Positions 46-1,039 of a stretch of 54,382 bases of DNA are shown here, piece by piece. The stretch's first letter is position 1. Each line of letters begins with the position of its first letter. Below the pieces are notes generated by a model. That model saw only the letters and a program-made list of their open reading frames with translations, did not search any database and was not told the DNA's origin. The position numbers and the translations under genes were made by a program. Location of the stretch: the NCBI GenBank assembly GCA_018659585.1, contig JABJMC010000048.1, positions 1-54,382 on the forward strand, written 5' to 3'. The stretch is from Candidatus Peregrinibacteria bacterium. Its GTDB lineage: Bacteria; Patescibacteriota; Gracilibacteria; UBA1369; UBA12473.

Positions 46-74
46 TTGTTTTTAATTGCAATTTGTTTTATAAA
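46..74 (+). promoter_or_regulatory. Promoter of the cys leader/cysK unit
   Basis: TTGTTT at 46-51, a 17-base spacer and TATAAA at 69-74 form a good sigma-70-type promoter. The predicted start of transcription is about base 81, which is the A of the leader-peptide ATG, so the transcript would be leaderless. A hairpin at 10-19/31-40 lies just upstream and may be the terminator of a gene outside the window. Confidence 0.65.
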
Positions 75-80
75 TTAACT

Positions 81-134
81 ATGAAACACATTTTATTTAA
101 TCTTCTGGTTTGTTGTTGCCCCCCTGGGGCTTAA
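81..134 (+). CDS. 17-residue leader peptide with three consecutive Cys codons
   Basis: The frame reads MKHILFNLLVCCCPPGA and stops with TAA at 132-134. Codons 11-13 (111-119) are TGT TGT TGC. It lies between a promoter and an intrinsic terminator directly ahead of a cysteine synthase gene, which is the classic layout of an amino-acid leader peptide. Its role would be to report charged tRNA-Cys: ribosome stalling at the Cys codons frees the downstream sequence to form an antiterminator. There is no Shine-Dalgarno, and the -10 box ends 6 bases before the ATG. It is too short for similarity searches; the call rests on context and on the pairing geometry. Confidence 0.75.
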   Translation: MKHILFNLLVCCCPPGA

Positions 135-195
135 AAATGTGTCTTTTTACAATTTTTATTTAAGCCCTTTCCAAGTAATAGGAAGGGCATTTTTT
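118..195 (+). promoter_or_regulatory. Cysteine attenuator (three mutually exclusive hairpins)
   Basis: Three competing pairings can be drawn by eye. Helix 1:2 pairs 118-122 with 126-130 (GCCCC/GGGGC). Helix 2:3 pairs 126-135 with 159-168, ten base pairs with one G-U, and acts as antiterminator. Helix 3:4 pairs 164-172 with 181-188 and is followed by a T run at 190-195. Segment 2 contains the last codons and stop of the leader peptide, and the Cys codons lie over segment 1. Stalling at Cys codons would block 1:2 and favour 2:3; full translation would cover segment 2 and let the terminator form. Confidence 0.75.
164..195 (+). terminator. Intrinsic terminator of the cys attenuator
   Basis: The stem is 164-169 plus 171-172 against 181-188, with T170 bulged, an 8-base loop and six T residues at 190-195. 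It stands between the leader peptide and cysK. Confidence 0.8.
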
Positions 196-208
196 AATAT
201 CTCAAACC

Positions 209-1039
209 ATGAAAACTCCATTAATTACCCTCGACGGGATTCACACCAAACTCGAAACATACAACTTAACCGGCAGTATCAAAGATCGTATGGTTACTTT
301 TATAATTAATCAGGCCGAAAAACGCGGTGAGCTTAAAAAAGGCCAACAAATCATCGAAGTTACCTCTGGAAACACCGGAATTGCCTTAGCCGCCATTTCC
401 GCTCAACGCGGTTACAAATTCACCGCCATTATGCCAGAATCCATGAGTCTTCAGCGACGACAAATGATGCAGGCTTTTGGTGCCAACTTAATCCTCACTC
501 CAGCCAAAGAGGACATTGTTGGAGCAATCAGCAAATACAAAGAATTAGTCGGCTCAACCCCCTCTGCGTACCTTCCTAAGCAATTCGAGAATCCAGACAA
601 CATTATGGCCCACCAACTCGGCCTCGGCCCTGAAATTCTGGCCGACGTACCACAAGTTGACGTTTTTGTAGCGGGGGCCGGCACCGGCGGAACACTTATT
701 GGAGTAGCTAAAGCTTTGCCCAAAACCACCAAAATTATTGCTGTTGAACCAGCAGAATCAGCGGTTCTTTCTGGCGGCAAGCCTGGAATTCACGGCATTC
801 AAGGTATTGGCGAAGGTTTTATTCCTCATATTTTAGAAGAAAATCGTCATTTAATTGATGAAATTATTATCATAAAAACCAAAGACGCCATCCGGGCCAG
901 CCACGATCTTGCTCAAAAAAATGGTGTTTTAGTTGGCATTAGTTCGGGCGCCAATTTCCTTGCTGCACAGTCGCTCAAAAATCGCTTTCGCCACATCGTG
1001 ACGGTGTTCCCAGATAGGGGAGAGCGATATTTTAAATAA
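209..1039 (+). CDS. cysK: Cysteine synthase (O-acetylserine sulfhydrylase), PLP-dependent
   Basis: It makes cysteine from O-acetylserine and sulfide, a cytosolic fold-type II PLP reaction. The Schiff-base lysine is K25 in GSIKDR. The TSGNTG substrate loop is at 52-57, the glycine-rich phosphate loop GTGGT near 157-161, and GISSGAN near 243-249. The chain ends right after the conserved GERYF motif, so at 276 residues it is about 30 shorter than usual; the N-terminus is also clipped, beginning close to the KDR motif. The start is the ATG 13 bases after the terminator T run. It is the only gene behind the Cys-codon leader, which supports a cysteine rather than a threonine, serine or cystathionine role, although those related PLP enzymes cannot be fully excluded. 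Confidence 0.85.
   Translation: MKTPLITLDGIHTKLETYNLTGSIKDRMVTFIINQAEKRGELKKGQQIIEVTSGNTGIALAAISAQRGYKFTAIMPESMSLQRRQMMQAFGANLILTPAKEDIVGAISKYKELVGSTPSAYLPKQFENPDNIMAHQLGLGPEILADVPQVDVFVAGAGTGGTLIGVAKALPKTTKIIAVEPAESAVLSGGKPGIHGIQGIGEGFIPHILEENRHLIDEIIIIKTKDAIRASHDLAQKNGVLVGISSGANFLAAQSLKNRFRHIVTVFPDRGERYFK

Follow-up and report, generated by a model that had tools for sequence, protein, structure and literature searches.

How is the cysK gene near the start of this contig controlled? The window is the whole contig of 54,382 nucleotides, read from base 1, which leaves 80 bases of DNA visible 5' of a short reading frame that precedes cysK. A preliminary description of this DNA had proposed a trp/his-type attenuator retuned to cysteine, on a leaderless message that it considered unusual for attenuation. 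Based on folding, on the comparison with relatives and on profile searches, we find it very probable that cysK is governed by a trp/his-type transcription attenuator that is mediated by the ribosome and responds to cysteine (probability roughly 0.87). Translation confirms a 17-codon frame with three successive Cys codons, folding reproduces three mutually exclusive helices that end in a T run before cysK, and the -10 box lies 6 bases from the leader ATG, all as first described. In Table 1, we report the parts.

Table 1. Parts of the proposed cysK attenuator in the window, with the basis of each assignment.
Feature	Positions	Strand	Basis and remarks
Candidate -35 box, TTGTTT	46-51	+	sequence, weak match, putative; 17-base spacer to the -10 box
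Candidate -10 box, TATAAA	69-74	+	sequence; leader ATG 6 bases downstream
Leader ORF, MKHILFNLLVCCCPPGA and stop codon	81-134	+	translated sequence
Cys codons TGT-TGT-TGC (leader codons 11-13)	111-119	+	sequence; proposed regulatory
Helix 1:2, antiterminator-blocking hairpin (118-122/126-130)	118-130	+	folding; -9.1 kcal/mol for 111-135
Helix 2:3, antiterminator, GGGGCTTAAA paired to TTTAAGCCCT	126-168	+	folding; -12.3 kcal/mol
Helix 3:4, intrinsic terminator hairpin	164-188	+	folding; -10.9 to -12.4 kcal/mol
Terminator U tract, ATTTTTT	189-195	+	sequence
cysK, cysteine synthase / O-acetylserine sulfhydrylase family, 276 aa	209-1039	+	profile and structure matches

The gene downstream of the leader belongs to the pathway of cysteine, the amino acid of the leader codons. 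Its product matches NCBIfam TIGR01139 (E 1e-95) and Pfam PALP (E 3e-59), with a score of 320 bits that is slightly under the NCBIfam cysK cut-off of 351 and an N-terminus that begins at profile position 8. The best solved relative is the O-acetylserine sulfhydrylase 1o58 (E 5e-71), and the motifs GSIKDR, TSGNTG, GTGGT and GISSGAN are all kept.

From these parts we infer a start site, a stalling ribosome, readthrough and transcription-translation coupling that would work together as follows. RNA polymerase would start at the leader ATG or a few bases away, and a ribosome, needing no Shine-Dalgarno site, would load straight onto the 5' AUG. When Cys-tRNA is sufficient, the ribosome would reach the stop codon at 132-134 and cover segment 2; segment 3 would then pair with segment 4, the terminator would form, and transcription would end near base 195. 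When Cys-tRNA is scarce, the ribosome would stall at codons 11-13 and block segment 1, such that segments 2 and 3 would pair before segment 4 is synthesized and the polymerase would continue into cysK. If there is no translation, helix 1:2 would form, and termination would be the default outcome.

The window's leader has every segment of this scheme, and these fold in the way it requires. The stretch 81-208 folds at -29.3, versus -21.2 +/- 3.4 for its shuffles (z -2.4). The ribosome-free RNA has helix 1:2 plus helix 3:4 as its best fold, and the RNA from segment 2 up to base 178 has helix 2:3, which for the window by itself is marginal relative to shuffles (p 0.046). If a ribosome is placed at the stop codon and the stretch that it hides is removed, only the terminator remains. 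If it is stalled at the codon at 111 and its footprint is removed with an edge at +11 or +13, the antiterminator is the best fold. With an edge at +15, or for most edges when the ribosome is stalled one or two Cys codons later, equilibrium folds make the terminator combination at least as stable as helix 2:3, so that either the first Cys codon or the order of folding would have to decide.

Comparison with relatives supports this reading. We searched 353 whole genomes of the class, of which 31 have cysK at E <= 1e-30, together with 380 sampled genomes of the phylum (12 cysK hits) and 86 genomes of the class of one of them, G609 (4 cysK hits). A short upstream ORF with a run of Cys codons is found at 21 of the 43 phylum cysK loci, for a total of 22 leaders, since one locus has a tandem pair. 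The Cys-run mini-ORF, the terminator and the 2:3 alternative extend to relatives with CysK identity as low as about 34%. The locus with the closest CysK (L019, about 64-65% identical) has the leader MYIGASQHCCCKDARKSGADSVINM. Other leaders are MKSTNIYNQINNCCCGLGIVPRSACLCS (L004) and, from the same family, MIYSQLISNCCCLSKEAPLES (L007), as well as MLLISNCACCCCISCGGGCCK (L033) and MISKHEFQEFTNFCLGFPNSCPGRTCSCC (L051). Apart from the resemblances of L004 to L005 and of L052 to L054, most leaders are alike in their Cys codons only. The leader is scattered over the CysK tree, where it needs 11 changes, at least 8 of them forced by well-supported branches. Where the Cys leader is missing, cysK mostly starts no more than 135 nt from another ORF, and because of this it may be transcribed from upstream.

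The leaders are specific for cysteine. Within the 300 nt 5' of cysK at the 43 loci, ORFs 8-45 codons long contain Cys runs of three or more at 14 loci compared with 0 in 20 dinucleotide-shuffled sets, and at least two Cys in a row at 21 loci compared with 2.55 in shuffles (maximum 5). Residues other than Cys stay near their shuffled means, with leucine the case of 7 runs versus 3.95. Two further ORFs were left out of the count of leaders: an ORF beginning MGFV and carrying a CC pair at L014, and a CCC mini-ORF (MQKQSLKTHNSCCCKPTI) at 1035-1091 of L053, which lies 326 nt 5' of the second cysK (at 1417) of its genome, G747.

Downstream of 21 of the 22 leaders there is a hairpin with a T run, of which that assigned to L052 is doubtful, since it has only -3.4 kcal/mol and overlaps a second ORF. 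Because most leaders cannot be aligned, we use a test of pairing against shuffles in place of covariation. Segment 2 starts a median of 20 nt past the first tandem Cys codon. In 16 of the 19 leaders that allow the test (all except L019, L026 and L052), the pairing of this post-Cys segment with the terminator (flank, 5' arm and loop) exceeds that of shuffles at p <= 0.05. The leaders above that value are L033 (0.054), L036 and L051. The combined Fisher P for the 19 is 2.8e-16, a value somewhat overstated since the leaders are partly related and not fully independent. An earlier, narrower test that considered the terminator 5' arm only reached p <= 0.05 for 10 of 21 leaders (Fisher P 3e-10); it missed pairings with the flank and the loop, and the wider region was defined after this result had been seen. 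Helix 1:2 is a result for the window only. Both the Cys codons and helix 2:3, on which the preliminary description had staked its claim, are thus present in relatives (21 of 43 loci with leaders, 16 of 19 leaders with 2:3), and they support its reading of a trp/his-type attenuator for cysteine.

Where transcription starts is the part of the model with the strongest competitor. By an automatic start rule that takes the most upstream in-frame ATG (leader start codons were otherwise partly picked by eye), a TATAAT-like -10 hexamer ends 4-9 nt 5' of the ATG in 12 of the 22 leaders, compared with 3.4 +/- 1.7 in shuffles, for which the maximum in 1000 is 9; the other 10 have no -10 box at leaderless spacing. 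Similar -10-to-ATG spacing is thus seen in relatives of the window's leader. Such a box is found 4-9 nt before the start of cysK itself in 9 of 40 cases. In all 22 leaders, the 18 bases ahead of the start codon are devoid of Shine-Dalgarno-like sites, and such sites precede just 1 of the 43 main ORFs of the window, whose starts were assigned mechanically. Initiation in this genome seems, from its sequence, to be largely independent of Shine-Dalgarno sites. Because of the excess of -10 spacings, the lack of Shine-Dalgarno sites in the leaders and their rarity in the window, initiation on the leaders is likely to be leaderless or to involve a very short 5' UTR. The same switch could instead be not truly leaderless, having a short 5' UTR or a leader reached by processing or by read-through from upstream, a possibility that we consider doubtful yet worth keeping in mind. 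In the window, the putative transcription start at the leader ATG is placed by the -10 spacing. In relatives, the -10 box is 12-13 nt from the ATG in L008 and L026, there is no clear box in L028, L038 and L042, and the leader of L044 follows a tRNA-Leu gene closely. Also, TANNNT is frequent in AT-rich DNA, and occurs 4-9 nt before the start of 11 of the 43 window genes. Against this reading stand the excess of leaderless spacing over shuffles and several leaders whose start codon follows an exact TATAAT at 5-9 nt, in some cases with a TTGACA-like -35 box as well. In L044 (genome G358; coordinates with cysK turned to the + strand), tRNA-Leu occupies 1180-1263 and the leader ATG is at 1276, a gap of 12 nt, such that processing of the tRNA 3' end could produce a near-leaderless 5' end.

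The hairpins speak against control at another level. Cysteine codons could act through translational or Rho-dependent control, as proposed for the polycysteine ORFs of mycobacteria, with the hairpin merely ending the transcript from upstream. Those leaderless ORFs do exert regulation with no obvious terminator (PMC1262725; Canestrari 2020, as cited in PMC9031893). Here, however, a hairpin and T run stand between the leader and cysK for nearly all leaders, and the 5' side of the terminator is complementary to the segment right after the Cys codons. The folds of the window include no helix that specifically masks the cysK start. We regard this explanation as unlikely.

That a riboswitch or a T-box takes the place of the leader-peptide switch is very improbable. 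What recurs is a coding property, the Cys runs, and not an RNA sequence, and there is no conserved aptamer. At 46-211, Rfam gives no match at gathering score, which led us to reject both candidates there; the matches at E up to 5 are weak and chance-like, and the T-box (RF00230) is absent from them. One cysK of the phylum does have a T-box: in L048, RF00230 matches upstream of cysK at 2479-2722 on the minus strand with 59.2 bits (gathering 93) and E 1.5e-11. This locus has a T-box and not a Cys leader, that is, a different tRNA-sensing switch on cysK within the same phylum.

Chance, as an arbitrary mini-ORF ahead of the ordinary terminator of an upstream gene, would fit the modest single-locus statistics and a pattern scan of the window's own genome that returned 2 matches versus 4 in a reversed control, but it is hardly credible given that Cys-only recurrence at 21 loci comes with matched antiterminators, and we reject it on the comparative counts. 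The scan of that genome, which looked for T runs downstream of Cys runs and is too noisy for finding further Cys switches, identified no clear second one, and when the window was scanned for further terminators of the attenuator type, no second convincing case emerged.

The attenuator reading applies to a host that the preliminary description had tentatively taken to be a Patescibacterium. The source genome is 1.41 Mb and 96.7% complete. Ribosomal protein L30 is absent from all 11 genomes tested and present in 10 of 14 controls, phylum-mates have genomes of about 1 Mb, and two class-mates have in-frame TGA codons; these features fit Patescibacteria. None of 22 genomes (G000 and 21 related genomes with leaders) has a cysE above the NCBIfam cut-off, even though they carry a cysK that cysteine apparently regulates. 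G186 has one weaker cysE match of 114.8 bits.

Lineages appear to vary the cysK switch by tandem copies, by inclusion of tRNA-Cys, and by replacement with a T-box. In L045 (G609), two complete Cys attenuators stand in tandem, with leaders at 1145-1198 and 1276-1344 and cysK at 1420; neither shares its CCC leader, antiterminator or terminator with the other. In L054 (G747; locus oriented with cysK on the + strand), the order is leader (1168-1224), tRNA-Cys (1317-1390) and cysK (1417), so that a single switch may control both cysK and the tRNA-Cys that it senses.

It seems fairly probable that Patescibacteria widely control cysK by termination attenuation, with the ribosome on a leaderless leader ORF. 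If true, tight transcription-translation coupling would be needed from the first nucleotide in these mostly uncultured bacteria with reduced genomes. The switch, present in many distant Patescibacteria on messages without Shine-Dalgarno sites that are probably leaderless, would be a sequence-level sign of such coupling. The Cys leaders would likewise indicate that Patescibacteria sense their own cysteine supply despite their reduced genomes. The arrangement would also provide a compact natural system for the speed at which 70S ribosomes load onto a 5' AUG relative to the polymerase.

Our full-text search of a limited literature returned no account of leader-peptide attenuation for Patescibacteria or the Candidate Phyla Radiation. 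The T-box is alike in sensing tRNA charging, as in L048, but it binds the tRNA directly and has no leader ORF, and it does not occur in the window. The uORFC-8-2 motif, which lies 5' of cysS in Rhodobacterales (PMC8632094), shares the intrinsic terminator and a uORF that carries tandem Cys codons, and both proposals are drawn from sequence; it controls cysS in another phylum, and the part of that source describing it mentions no leaderless feature, whereas the window's switch precedes cysK. Mycobacterial polycysteine leaderless short ORFs, which act in regulation (Canestrari 2020, cited in PMC9031893), have an uninterrupted run of Cys codons late in a short ORF with cysteine genes downstream, and resemble the window's probably leaderless ORF. 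They were predicted without conserved terminator hairpins (PMC1262725), unlike the window with its intrinsic terminator and matched antiterminator. The trpL of Sinorhizobium is leaderless, with the 5' end of the message at the leader ATG and ribosome-dependent termination (PMC7298713), as would be the case in the window; it differs in that it responds to tryptophan and controls trpE(G) in Alphaproteobacteria. Because of these precedents, and given how rare Shine-Dalgarno sites are in the window, a leaderless leader is less unusual for attenuation than first described, while its being leaderless remains likely from the position of the -10 box. The classical trp/his-type attenuators are alike in their run of regulated codons in a leader ORF, their 1:2, 2:3 and 3:4 alternatives, their intrinsic terminator and their biosynthetic gene, and the window has tandem codons, a terminator, an exclusive antiterminator after the codons, a 1:2 hairpin and a pathway gene. 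It differs from them in the use of cysteine, in having no Shine-Dalgarno site, in being probably leaderless, in its presence in Patescibacteria, and in controlling a single enzyme gene. The mechanism would thus be classical, and what appears new is the combination of cysteine codons, no Shine-Dalgarno site and a probably leaderless message, together with the phylum in which it is found.
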